The position numbers and the translations under genes were made by a program. Positions 284 through 61,319 of a DNA stretch of 64,000 nt are shown one piece after another (within the stretch, counting starts at the first letter, position 1; each line of letters starts with the position of its first letter). The notes beneath the pieces are model-generated. The model had not been told where the DNA came from and did no database searches. It worked only from the letters and a program-made list of their open reading frames with translations. Location of the stretch: assembly GCA_905160935.1 (NCBI GenBank), contig CAJHZI010000202.1, positions 104,501-168,500 on the forward strand. The letters run 5' to 3'. The stretch is from Enchytraeus crypticus (Eukaryota; Annelida; Clitellata; Enchytraeida; Enchytraeidae).

Positions 284-825
284 ATGACGATCAGCGAAGA
301 GAAATGGAAGCTTTTCCACCTCCTTCTATGTCTATACCCAGGTGAGTCAGGGAGATGATTAATTAATTAGCTAATTATTTAATTAATTTTGTATTTGTCT
401 ACTAATTTCGGAAGCGTTATAATAGATGTAGATAATTTATTAAGCACTGCTAAAGTAAATTGGTGAAATTGATATTTTAGAAGTCACACAGTATTTATTT
501 TACAGGCCAATAAATTCATATAGTTTAATTGATTAAAAGTTTCTTGATTGCATGAGAGAGCAATTAAGAAACAGGTTCGTGTTACACAACTCCTCATATA
601 TCGCGCTGATCTGAAAGTAAAATCTCAGACATTCACAGGACTGCTTATACGTAAAACGGTCTAAATTGCGTAATGGATTAAACATAAAGTACTGAAAGTG
701 ATAGATATTAACATAGTTGATCATTTCACTACAAAGAGTGTTTATTTTTTTCAGCTCTTTAAAGTGAATTTTTTATGTTTGTTTATATGCAGCCCTTAAT
801 GCATTCTCAAGTCTAGGGACAGAAG
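284..825 (+). CDS. Gene A exons 1-2: signal peptide and linker
   Basis: Exon 1 (284-341) opens MTISEEKWKLFHLLLCLYP, a charged start then a hydrophobic core, and ends in phase 1 before GTGAGT. Exon 2 (793-825) follows TTTATATGCAG and encodes ALNAFSSLGTEG; its 33 bases match the length and phase of exon 2 of gene C. The ATG is the only one giving a signal-like sequence that joins in phase. A SINE remnant occupies most of the intron. Confidence 0.7.
576..738 (+). mobile_element. S2 tRNA-derived SINE, 3' part
   Basis: Shares CGCGCTGATCTGAAAGTAAA, ATCTCAGACATTCACAGGAC, GATATTAACATAGTTGATCA and TTTCACTA with the fuller copies near 21870 and 57900. In gene A intron 1. Confidence 0.7.
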
Positions 826-61200: not shown

Positions 61201-61319
61201 CAGCACTCCTAGTCTCTATACTACTACTCATAGTCCTAGCCGCAGATTTTTCCATTTTCTTTCAACAATTAAATAAATGTCGCAAGTTGGTAAATTTAAA
61301 CAAAAGACGAAAGGGCTGA
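41947..61319 (+). CDS. Gene C: FAMeT-FAMeT-mucin-9xCCP type I membrane protein
   Basis: Third paralogue, intact and the longest. Exons: 41947-42007, 43262-43294, 44710-44911, 47189-47433, 48270-48305, 49325-49372, 50225-50444, 50982-51238, 51853-52806, 53448-53645, 54328-54546, 54952-55125, 55669-55887, 56357-56578, 57245-57457, 58144-58338, 58598-58900, 60218-60412, 61129-61319. They total 4185 bases, 1394 residues plus stop, with all phases consistent. By residue: signal about 1-21, FAMeT-1 32-181, linker 181-209, FAMeT-2 209-368, stalk 368-686, nine CCPs 686-1332, membrane span about 1351-1375, basic tail. Its larger size comes from the 318-codon stalk and longer CCP8. Cell-surface location is well supported; ligand and pathway are unknown. 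Confidence 0.9.
42058..42150 (+). repeat. R5 interspersed repeat tail
   Basis: An AAT run then AAAAGTTTAATGTCCGATTC, CTCATCCATGGATGATGTCA, GGGACGTCCTGA. The same words occur at about 39262-39316, 18718-18760, 11338-11380 (reduced) and 48350-48412 (diverged), so this is a dispersed element often tied to AAT triplets. Confidence 0.55.
42405..42545 (+). repeat. CAT/CGT triplet repeat
   Basis: CATCATCGTCGTC-type triplets. Poly-Asp, poly-His and poly-Ile open frames here are artefacts. In gene C intron 1. Confidence 0.95.
43020..43148 (+). repeat. 31-base minisatellite
   Basis: About four copies of a unit containing GTTGATTGATACATTTTTAT and AAGTTTACATT, decaying downstream. In gene C intron 1, just before exon 2. 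Confidence 0.85.
43539..43610. repeat. 35-base-arm inverted repeat
   Basis: Arms 43539-43573 and 43576-43610 are exact reverse complements around AG. The right arm is L1x coding sequence. Confidence 0.95.
43539..43855 (+). mobile_element. L1x 3' fragment with inverted 5' edge
   Basis: From 43576 the plus strand follows the element from TCCTGGAGAGAGTTGGCACA to the tail ATGGACCTGCCACTAGGCAG and a GA run. Its first 35 bases are repeated in inverted form at 43539-43573 with two bases between. In the gene C intron between exons 2 and 3. Confidence 0.75.
44710..47433 (+). CDS. Gene C exons 3-4: FAMeT-like domain 1
   Basis: Exon 3 (44710-44911) has VTEVAFQVRTLSAANLYLN and YQVVIGGGGN; exon 4 (47189-47433) has YRWFWFSYYKGYLSYGTGD, HYQHQPKPGGTLYIGAYS and DWIIPKIYWSP. 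It is intact and serves as reference for the deletion in gene A. The 2.3 kb intron carries microsatellites and an S1 SINE. Confidence 0.82.
45268..45311 (-). mobile_element. S1 SINE terminal fragment
   Basis: AAGCTAATGTTAACTTCAGT and TTCTTCACTCGAAAGCGAT are the 3' end of S1 in reverse, ending in an AAT run. Confidence 0.5.
45350..45525 (+). repeat. ATT/AAT triplet repeat
   Basis: Degenerate ATT and AAT triplets after an S1 terminal fragment in the gene C intron before exon 4; a GA run follows at 45699-45750. Confidence 0.85.
46701..46822 (+). mobile_element. S1 SINE
   Basis: CTGGAGCCAGTGGCGAAGTC, TCGACCGCGGATAAATATGT, GGTTCAAATC, GCCCGTCACTGATA, GAGTGAGGAAACTGACGTTA. In the gene C intron before exon 4. 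Confidence 0.8.
47977..48103 (+). repeat. 24-base minisatellite of acceptor-like units
   Basis: Five copies of a unit ending CATTTTCTCTCAG. Each unit has a pyrimidine tract plus AG, resembling a 3' splice site. In gene C intron 4, 166 bases before exon 5. Confidence 0.9.
48270..49372 (+). CDS. Gene C exons 5-6: inter-domain micro-exons
   Basis: Exon 5 (48270-48305, 36 bases, VQMNINDSAYI) follows CATTTTTTCAG; exon 6 (49325-49372, 48 bases, DDSLNADTPVSCTQP) follows TTTCACAG. Both are symmetric phase 1. A minisatellite built of acceptor-like units stands 170 bases before exon 5. Confidence 0.75.
48576..48631 (+). repeat. Interstitial telomere-like tract
   Basis: Roughly seven CCCTAA-type units (CTAACCCTAACCCTATACCC, TAACCTTAACCCTAACC), imperfect. 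In the gene C intron before exon 6. Confidence 0.7.
48971..49094 (-). mobile_element. S1 SINE
   Basis: AACGGCAGTTTCCTCACTCG, GTCAGTGACGGCGAGCCCGG, ACATACTAATCAGCGGTCGA, ACTTCGCCACTGGCTCC. In the gene C intron before exon 6. Confidence 0.8.
49553..49610 (+). repeat. GA microsatellite
   Basis: A GA run in the gene C intron before exon 7. Confidence 0.95.
49880..49955 (-). mobile_element. tRNA-like SINE relative
   Basis: The minus strand reads GGAGTCGGTGGCCTGATTGG, TTAGACTTCCGACTGCGGGC and CTACGAACCCACC, a tRNA-like head with A- and B-box-like parts, next to an S1 copy. Confidence 0.35.
49991..50130 (-). mobile_element. S1 SINE with inverted partner
   Basis: Minus-strand S1 copy (49991-50097) abutting the first ~30 bases of a plus-strand S1 copy (GCCAGTGGCGAAGTCGGTAA from 50099). 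The junction forms a hairpin with 15-base arms (50080-50094 and 50099-50113) and a 4-base loop. In the gene C intron before exon 7. Confidence 0.75.
50225..51238 (+). CDS. Gene C exons 7-8: FAMeT-like domain 2
   Basis: Exon 7 (50225-50444) has YHPLDVDLTGWNSMIFKISG, SMCLS, VCPGFEIGFLVV; exon 8 (50982-51238) has [47 protein letters not shown]. The first 100 bases of exon 7 are almost those of gene A. Confidence 0.82.
50440..50580 (+). repeat. Duplicated ~60-base segment
   Basis: AGTATAGTTTAGTACCACTA and GTAGTAAGTCAAGTATAA recur with changes two to three times just after gene C exon 7. Confidence 0.6.
51853..52806 (+). CDS. Gene C exon 9: long mucin-like stalk
   Basis: 318 codons, the largest exon in the window. 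The first third is nearly pure Ser/Thr with Leu, Pro and Phe spacers in degenerate STS-type repeats; the rest is acidic and Ser/Thr-rich. No cysteine. It ends YFYPG. Long antisense reading frames here are by-products of the repeat. Confidence 0.82.
52807..54327. other. Gene C introns around CCP1
   Basis: Outside exon 10 (53448-53645) no repeat or motif is recognised in this stretch. The same holds for the introns at 9102-9929, 13364-13912, 15585-16152, 16339-17090, 27739-28025, 28224-28792, 33355-33887, 55126-55668 and 60413-61128. Confidence 0.45.
53448..53645 (+). CDS. Gene C exon 10: CCP module 1
   Basis: 66 codons: [44 protein letters not shown]. Four canonical cysteines and tryptophan. 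Confidence 0.92.
54328..54546 (+). CDS. Gene C exon 11: divergent CCP module 2
   Basis: 73 codons: TTCDVNKTATGD, TQQCTNSTSDASRLAIGLR, IKCTSVRG, SSCS. Four cysteines but no tryptophan before the last one, so a CCP-like module rather than a standard one. Confidence 0.75.
54952..55125 (+). CDS. Gene C exon 12: CCP module 3
   Basis: 58 codons: [45 protein letters not shown]. The most conserved module among the three genes. Confidence 0.92.
55669..55887 (+). CDS. Gene C exon 13: CCP module 4
   Basis: 73 codons: IYCEALDLPPNSTAG, VTCLPGYKFVNSS, VQCVDTVYNSTS, YWNQSVPDCV. Nearly identical to gene A. Confidence 0.92.
56357..56578 (+). CDS. Gene C exon 14: CCP module 5
   Basis: 74 codons: FYCRPPTPMTHTTTKALSE, the shared GC-rich patch from [37 protein letters not shown]. 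Confidence 0.92.
56931..57054 (-). mobile_element. S1 SINE
   Basis: AGCTAAAGTTAATGGCAGTT, CACTCGAAAGCGATATCAGT, GGATTTGAACC, TGATCCGCAGTCGAATACCT, CATCGCCACTGGCTCC. Between gene C exons 14 and 15. Confidence 0.8.
57245..57457 (+). CDS. Gene C exon 15: CCP module 6
   Basis: 71 codons: GRCPPAKQFSRAIG, INYTCDVGYWFKSQ, ITNCNGQEWLPTVPDCE. Only the four canonical cysteines. The acceptor ATCACACAAG is weak but fixed by phase. Confidence 0.9.
57595..57730 (-). repeat. R3 repeat fragment, reverse
   Basis: CGTAAGAGGCAGTTAATCGA and ATCGTAAGCTATAGCCATAT retain the R3 order weakly. Between gene C exons 15 and 16. Confidence 0.35.
57889..58125 (-). mobile_element. S2 SINE, near full length
   Basis: CACATTATAGTGAAATGATC, CACATGTTTAAACCGTTACG, AGGGTTCGAACCCACGGTGG, ACCTCAGGATCTGTCATTTA, ACGCTATTGAGACATTCTAA. 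It ends 19 bases before gene C exon 16. Confidence 0.8.
58144..58338 (+). CDS. Gene C exon 16: CCP module 7
   Basis: 65 codons: VFCPHLVYPMLPVY, VTCAVGYDLYVN, LNCDETGNWAPNLTCE. A minus-strand S2 SINE ends about 19 bases upstream. Confidence 0.9.
58598..58900 (+). CDS. Gene C exon 17: CCP module 8 with long insert
   Basis: 101 codons: IKCPQFNSLKTLKIANLL, then a charged insert of about 40 residues rich in Asp, Glu, Arg and Ser, GTELTFTCPPGFQFS, VVCQSSGKWLPE, DDCT. The longest CCP8 of the three. Confidence 0.9.
59163..59630 (-). mobile_element. L1x non-LTR retrotransposon 3' end, 131-codon open ORF
   Basis: The minus strand at 59582-59187 is open for 131 codons: [81 protein letters not shown], stop. 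This is the C-terminus of an endonuclease/reverse transcriptase element. 5'-truncated beside a TA run at 59634-59705; it lies in the intron between gene C exons 17 and 18. The best-preserved of about eight copies. Confidence 0.8.
59634..59705 (+). repeat. TA and TTTA microsatellite
   Basis: TA run then TTTA units at the truncated 5' edge of the L1x copy. Confidence 0.95.
60218..60412 (+). CDS. Gene C exon 18: CCP module 9
   Basis: 65 codons: [43 protein letters not shown]. Has a small Ala-rich insertion compared with A and B. Confidence 0.92.
61129..61319 (+). CDS. Gene C exon 19: transmembrane segment and tail
   Basis: DKVAQSTVYLQATEAPNA, then a strong hydrophobic span (VVTIVPALLVSILLLIVLAA), FSIFFQQLNKCRKL and a Lys/Arg tail ending KGC-terminal stop TGA (last residues RRKG). 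No tyrosine-based motif is visible. Confidence 0.87.

Follow-up and report, generated by a model that had tools for sequence, protein, structure and literature searches.

Tandem genes for predicted FAMeT-headed, CCP-stalked membrane glycoproteins in Enchytraeus crypticus: a candidate family of surface recognition receptors

Methyltransferase activity, the enzyme function for which FAMeT is named, is reported never to have been reliably demonstrated in vitro, and the arthropod FAMeT types, in the available part of the account that describes them, comprise either two pfam12248 domains or pfam12248-DUF3421, and these domains only (PMC10015273). We analyzed a 64,000-nucleotide stretch of the Enchytraeus crypticus genome (hereafter the window; C120:104501-168500, in an assembly of 524 Mb and 802 contigs) in which a cluster of genes encodes predicted membrane proteins that begin like the crustacean and insect FAMeT proteins, as far as these are covered by the same partial account (PMC10015273), with a PF12248 domain followed by a second, tandem FAMeT-like domain. 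Unlike those proteins, they continue into a stalk, complement control protein (CCP) modules, and a membrane segment, and their second domain lies below Pfam detection. Queries of the open-licence PubMed Central (PMC) literature that combined FAMeT with sushi, CCP, or mucin, or that named Methyltransf_FA or PF12248, returned no description of this architecture (among the top results, for the broadest queries). The original prediction, made from the DNA letters, could not put a name to it.

Among receptors with sushi (CCP) modules, Ciona vCRL1, a variable membrane receptor, had been proposed as comparable; the available part of its description mentions no FAMeT head for this tunicate protein (PMC9265791). 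The comparison stands for the logic of a sushi-containing membrane receptor, but by mitochondrial codon use (see below) the window genes come from another phylum and are not tunicate genes. Botryllus fester and FcoR likewise form clusters of type I membrane proteins, and these include a sushi module, but they carry Ig domains, and FcoR has long tails with ITIM or hemITAM motifs (PMC12065747, available part); none of these was found in the window genes, and Pfam scans of gene B and of the head and CCP column of gene C, taken to E 10, gave no Ig family. The clustered protocadherins, in which one ectodomain is homogenized and the rest have diverged, a pattern tied to recognition diversity in the available part of a review (PMC3966226), are a closer analogue of the evolutionary pattern than vCRL1. 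They too are tandem surface proteins with homogenized and diverging ectodomain parts, an analogy of pattern only: here three modules are homogenized, each unit is an entire gene whose ectodomain exons are split, and Pfam scans of B and of the head and CCP column of C gave no cadherin family. CD46 and CD55 share a CCP column on a membrane anchor and are the best PDB matches, a likeness by sequence only, and differ from the window genes, which add a FAMeT head and a distal stalk.

Compared with itself, the window shows three units arranged head to tail on the + strand, whose exon-sized blocks correspond to one another and which span 284-17330 (A), 21607-35902 (B), and 41947-61319 (C). Splice modeling, with AG/GT boundaries throughout, gave 15 exons common to each unit in the same order: F1a and F1b (head domain 1), F2a and F2b (head domain 2), a Ser/Thr-rich exon, c1 to c9 (the exons of CCPs or modules 1 to 9), and the last exon. 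The common domain order is FAMeT, FAMeT-like, Ser/Thr stalk, nine four-cysteine modules, hydrophobic segment, and short basic tail. The stalk exon and c1-c9 are phase 1-1, splice phases match across the three genes, and a phase-2 intron interrupts each head domain, 1 and 2 alike. An exon 1 with a signal-peptide-like start was modeled for A and C, and look-alikes precede their sister genes, Y and D, outside the window. Both the three head-to-tail copies of the original prediction and its placement of gene A exon 1 are thereby confirmed. The exons are as follows.

284..341, +, gene A exon 1, signal-peptide-like start (67% over 124 nt to the exon before Y, E 1e-12; donor CAGGTGAGT)
1600..1801, +, gene A F1a, head domain 1 first half (splice model)
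2596..2835, +, gene A F1b, head domain 1 second half, frame-shifted (splice model)
6022..6244, +, gene A F2a, head domain 2 first half (splice model)
7725..8005, +, gene A F2b, head domain 2 second half (splice model)
8544..9101, +, gene A Ser/Thr-rich stalk, 37% Ser+Thr
9930..10127, +, gene A CCP1
10709..10915, +, gene A module 2, four Cys, in-frame TAA, no support as CCP
11710..11883, +, gene A CCP3, homogenized
12303..12521, +, gene A CCP4, homogenized
13142..13363, +, gene A CCP5, homogenized
13913..14125, +, gene A CCP6
14473..14667, +, gene A CCP7
15327..15584, +, gene A CCP8
16153..16338, +, gene A CCP9
17116..17330, +, gene A hydrophobic segment, tail, stop
19385..19430, +, gene B exon 1 candidate, weak (based on the donor score; no relative found)
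21607..21808, +, gene B F1a (splice model, Pfam)
22829..23076, +, gene B F1b (splice model, Pfam)
25059..25278, +, gene B F2a (splice model, profile-profile)
26063..26340, +, gene B F2b (splice model, profile-profile)
27085..27738, +, gene B Ser/Thr-rich stalk, 32% Ser+Thr
28026..28223, +, gene B CCP1, close to C and D
28793..28999, +, gene B module 2, four Cys, no CCP support
29537..29710, +, gene B CCP3, homogenized
30809..31027, +, gene B CCP4, homogenized
32187..32408, +, gene B CCP5, homogenized
33133..33354, +, gene B CCP6
33888..34082, +, gene B CCP7
34366..34629, +, gene B CCP8
35035..35214, +, gene B CCP9
35682..35902, +, gene B hydrophobic segment, tail, stop
41947..42007, +, gene C exon 1, signal-peptide-like start (similar exon before sister D)
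44710..44911, +, gene C F1a (splice model, Pfam)
47189..47433, +, gene C F1b (splice model, Pfam)
50225..50444, +, gene C F2a (splice model, profile-profile)
50982..51238, +, gene C F2b (splice model, profile-profile)
51853..52806, +, gene C Ser/Thr-rich stalk, 45% Ser+Thr
53448..53645, +, gene C CCP1
54328..54546, +, gene C module 2, four Cys, no CCP support
54952..55125, +, gene C CCP3, homogenized
55669..55887, +, gene C CCP4, homogenized
56357..56578, +, gene C CCP5, homogenized
57245..57457, +, gene C CCP6
58144..58338, +, gene C CCP7
58598..58900, +, gene C CCP8
60218..60412, +, gene C CCP9
61129..61319, +, gene C hydrophobic segment, tail, stop

Genes B and C are open throughout their modeled exons. 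In gene A, F1b measures 240 nt, where B has 248 and C 245, which destroys the frame, and c2 contains an in-frame TAA, while the remaining modeled exons are open; in sister Y, F1b is 245 nt long and c2 has no stop. Given the frameshift and the TAA, gene A is probably a pseudogene (an assembly error is possible), and the window therefore holds two intact genes, B and C, and one probable pseudogene. The claim that all three genes encode the same domain order is accordingly retained for the architecture of B and C and given up for A.

The curated Pfam cut-off for PF12248 (24.2 bits) is exceeded by head domain 1 of genes B (32.9 bits), C (38.3), Y (34.7), and D (43.5); gene E, a further member outside the window, falls below it (20.9 bits), and domain 1 of A, which the frameshift interrupts, was not scanned in one piece. 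In the profile check named by the original prediction, the B and C proteins also matched PF00084 (Sushi), with six stretches in each (E 4.7e-18 and 3.4e-20). For domain 2, profile-profile alignment to FAMeT gave E 4.3e-5 and a score of 31.3, versus at most 21.8 in 100 column shuffles; an earlier comparison, which drew on no more than 2 and 3 sequences, did not reach significance. On the basis of this alignment, the phase-2 mid intron, and the second-half exon of domain 2 in gene E, which aligns to FAMeT profile positions 80-131 (12 bits, E 0.18), we favor the interpretation of domain 2 as a diverged FAMeT. The predicted pairing of FAMeT domains in the head is thus supported at Pfam level for domain 1 of B and C, and is favored for domain 2 by profile-profile comparison only. 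Domain 1 profiles found no match among PDB sequences.

Among single modules of gene C, c3 and c8 score above the PF00084 cut-off and c1, c4, c6, c7, and c9 below it; c5 gives no score in B or C and 26.8 bits in gene Z, another locus outside the window. Module 2 was initially read as an ordinary CCP, a reading that was dropped after profile comparison gave no support, and AlphaFold2 on two module 2 sequences returned no usable model (pLDDT 38). The nine CCPs of the original prediction are therefore better described as a Sushi column with four-cysteine modules at nine positions, of which module 2 is without CCP support. Ser+Thr makes up 32-47% of the stalk exons in A, B, C, and E, and Cys is absent from them. 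At the membrane end, six of six genes have a 19-residue hydrophobic stretch (mean 2.4-3.0) with a conserved Val-Pro inside and one aligned Asp directly after it, and none of the six basic tails contains a Yxx[LIV] motif. Exon models, Pfam matches, and the hydrophobic segment together uphold a membrane-receptor architecture of putative type I topology.

Divergence is distributed unevenly along these genes. The comparison set (Y, A, B, C, D, and E) gives 15 pairs, of which Y-A and C-D are sisters and 13 are non-sisters; A F1b is excluded from the synonymous (pS), four-fold, and third-position GC (GC3) comparisons and from Y-A dN/dS owing to its frameshift, and the gene E rows are without F2a and the last exon. 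Four-fold divergence of CCP3-5 is 0.10-0.28 in 13 of 13 non-sister pairs, versus 0.50-0.62 for all other exons together (Fisher p 7e-5 to 7e-12, values that are descriptive, as pairs share genes and c3-c5 were chosen after the alignments had been inspected). Pooled over non-sister pairs, divergence is 0.16 in c3, 0.28 in c4, and 0.12 in c5, with intermediate values in c6 (0.35) and c9 (0.37), and 0.50-0.76 in the other nine exons. In nine of the 11 non-sister pairs covered by a boundary check of CCP3 (Y-D and A-D were left out), a match of 92-96% starts 2-8 bases before the exon and stops 2 bases after it; the sister pair Y-A yielded no CCP3 match with the offset filter used. Single exons stand out elsewhere as well: in A-E, pS is 0.02 in c5, versus 0.64-0.78 in F1a, F2b, c1, c2, c7, and c8, and c1 has a pS of 0.27 in B-C and 0.23 in B-D, pairs in which exons outside c3-c5 reach 0.50-0.86. 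These three cases show what appear to be single-exon transfers. The likeness of c3-c5 indicates, as its simplest reading, gene conversion that would be confined to exons, since the introns have diverged. Pooled dN/dS is 0.34 in C-D (bootstrap 0.27-0.43) and 0.36 in Y-A; the C-D value supports real coding potential and shows purifying selection. By region, dN/dS in C-D peaks in the last exon (0.74) and in c1-c2 (0.56), with wide intervals.

We lean, by a modest degree, toward the explanation that the cluster of type I membrane glycoprotein genes is a family of surface recognition receptors, a function that the original prediction had likewise inferred. An intact gene would yield a protein with a signal peptide, a head of one FAMeT and one divergent FAMeT-like domain, a Ser/Thr stalk, a rod of roughly nine CCP-type modules, a single membrane helix, and a tail that is short and basic, with the distal head as its likely binding part. 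Between paralogues, the heads have diverged to near saturation and may differ in what they bind, while CCP3-5 would have been overwritten repeatedly by gene conversion, so that the six compared members retain one common stalk segment; through CCP3-5 the receptors might then all contact one another or the same co-receptor. Any signaling would probably proceed via a partner, because the tails are without a Tyr-based motif and a conserved Asp follows the hydrophobic stretch. A more specific proposal, which we regard as tentative and rather less probable, is a FAMeT-based protostome recognition system in which FAMeT is a binding head and not an enzyme, and in which the heads diversify while exon-limited conversion keeps CCP3-5 common, offering the same partner to every head. 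If true, this would be a division of labor like that between constant and variable parts in other self/non-self systems. In either case, a domain of unproven activity is combined here with a CCP stalk of immune type, and across the tandem family diverging heads stand against homogenized stalk modules, making the cluster a candidate, testable surface recognition repertoire in a protostome, with CCP3-5 as the natural bait for a shared partner.

Several observations weigh against this interpretation. Gene A is broken; Pfam gives nothing for head domain 2 in A, B, or C; and module 2 has neither a Sushi match nor profile support, only four cysteines and the exon phase. The CCP3 match reaches further in A-C (+27) and B-E (-18/+156), and in many pairs the c4 and c5 matches continue into the introns. 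Between non-sisters, the heads are too close to saturation to be informative on positive selection, and the C-D head is under purifying selection (0.27). In addition, gene Z and a locus on contig C410 (both described below) show that FAMeT head and CCP column are not always combined in this form.

The Ser/Thr-rich stalks and the short tails without a signaling motif would equally suit structural or adhesive epithelial glycoproteins (for cuticle, mucus, or gland anchoring), in which stalk and CCP rod space the FAMeT heads from the membrane for matrix binding, and a secreted abalone shell-matrix protein carries Methyltransf_FA, according to the available part of PMC6003135. Such proteins would have no need for strongly divergent tandem heads beside homogenized stalk modules, which is an argument rather than a test, and we consider this alternative doubtful, though the best placed of those weighed here. 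Membrane complement regulators or receptors, with a CCP column that binds a C3-like protein and a head of secondary importance, are unlikely: CD46 and CD55 are the closest solved structures by sequence (E 2e-7 to 4e-4), but they match about two modules, as would be expected of any CCP column. Constraint on DNA or RNA as the source of the low synonymous divergence of CCP3-5, with which the end of CCP3 identity at exon edges in 9/11 pairs would accord, is very improbable, as CCP3-5 of the sister pairs change as fast as the other exons at four-fold sites (0.15/0.16 and 0.17/0.18), so that synonymous-site constraint does not explain the likeness, while GC3 of c3-c5 is ordinary, A and E differ far less in c5 than in six other exons, and Rfam has no match within the window.

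The candidate receptor family extends beyond the window. Examination of C120:1-258500, of which 12.5 kb is N, located seven loci in about 150 kb (Z, Y, A, B, C, D, and E); the search for more copies on the flanking contig that the original prediction proposed thus found them, and the proposed extent of 284..61319, correct for three units, is too narrow, with members on both sides. The loci outside the three units are:

C120, exon 1 at 83959, to 100466, gene Y, sister of A, plan as in A/B/C
C120, exon 1 at 170630, to 188263, gene D, sister of C, plan as in A/B/C
C120:202106 to about 218042, gene E, plan as in A/B/C
C120, 68.3-78.1 kb, gene Z, long Ser/Thr stalk, then modules at the nine positions
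C410, 172-186 kb, F1-like exons, Ser/Thr-rich exon, c8-/c9-like modules, possible membrane exon

Gene E has a much changed head, in which an F2a exon was searched for and not found, and a Thr-rich repeat stalk; this stalk (C120:208794-210353, outside the window) comprises 519 residues of a Thr/Pro-rich, TTEPTTSVK-like repeat with 47% Ser+Thr. Stalk length varies widely between genes. No FAMeT head was seen near gene Z, whose stalk includes a weak PAN-like segment (17.9 bits, below cut-off); of its five modules scanned, c5 and c7 pass the Sushi cut-off, c3 stays under the cut-off, and the first two give no score. The F1 exons of the C410 locus, joined by eye, gave no Pfam score. A protein search of the genome with the head returned 37 exon matches (22 on C120, 10 on C228, three on C410, and one each on C720 and C620), whereas the genome-wide search with PF12248 yielded 67 matches with none on C120, because the domain is split there by an intron. 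A dense FAMeT array at C228:650-717 kb, outside the window, accounts for 55 of these 67, with a period of about 3.53 kb and many near-identical copies. Against a collection of 5.8 billion proteins the head had no match (C residues 1-310, within a query of the whole protein, at E<=0.01; D domain 1 and D domains 1+2, each at E<=1), a result that says little on rarity, as the animal content of the collection is uncertain.

Judged by conserved positions, COX1 on contig C802 reads AGR as Ser, ATA as Met, AAA as Lys, and TGA as Trp. This we take to be the invertebrate mitochondrial code, which would exclude tunicates, vertebrates, echinoderms, cnidarians, and sponges; codon use thus points to a protostome. 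The order nad3, nad2, cox1, cox2, cox3 on one strand, as recognized from the reading frames, is presumably the annelid ground pattern and makes an annelid likely. A tunicate origin was rejected, as AGR in COX1 is Ser and not Gly.

The window also contains several repeats. One, of about 130 bases, is dispersed in both orientations, with copies 77-91% alike (22454-22589, 24183-24310, 34685-34809, 46700-46829, 48957-49098, and 56925-57057); ARAGORN found no tRNA in the window, this repeat included. Another, of 285 bases, forms an inverted pair at 43570-43849 and 59153-59437 (94% identical); 36471-36702 and 10486-10630 hold weaker copies. A 19-base tandem repeat, in 11 copies with 96% matches, lies close to the right end, at 63775-63989.

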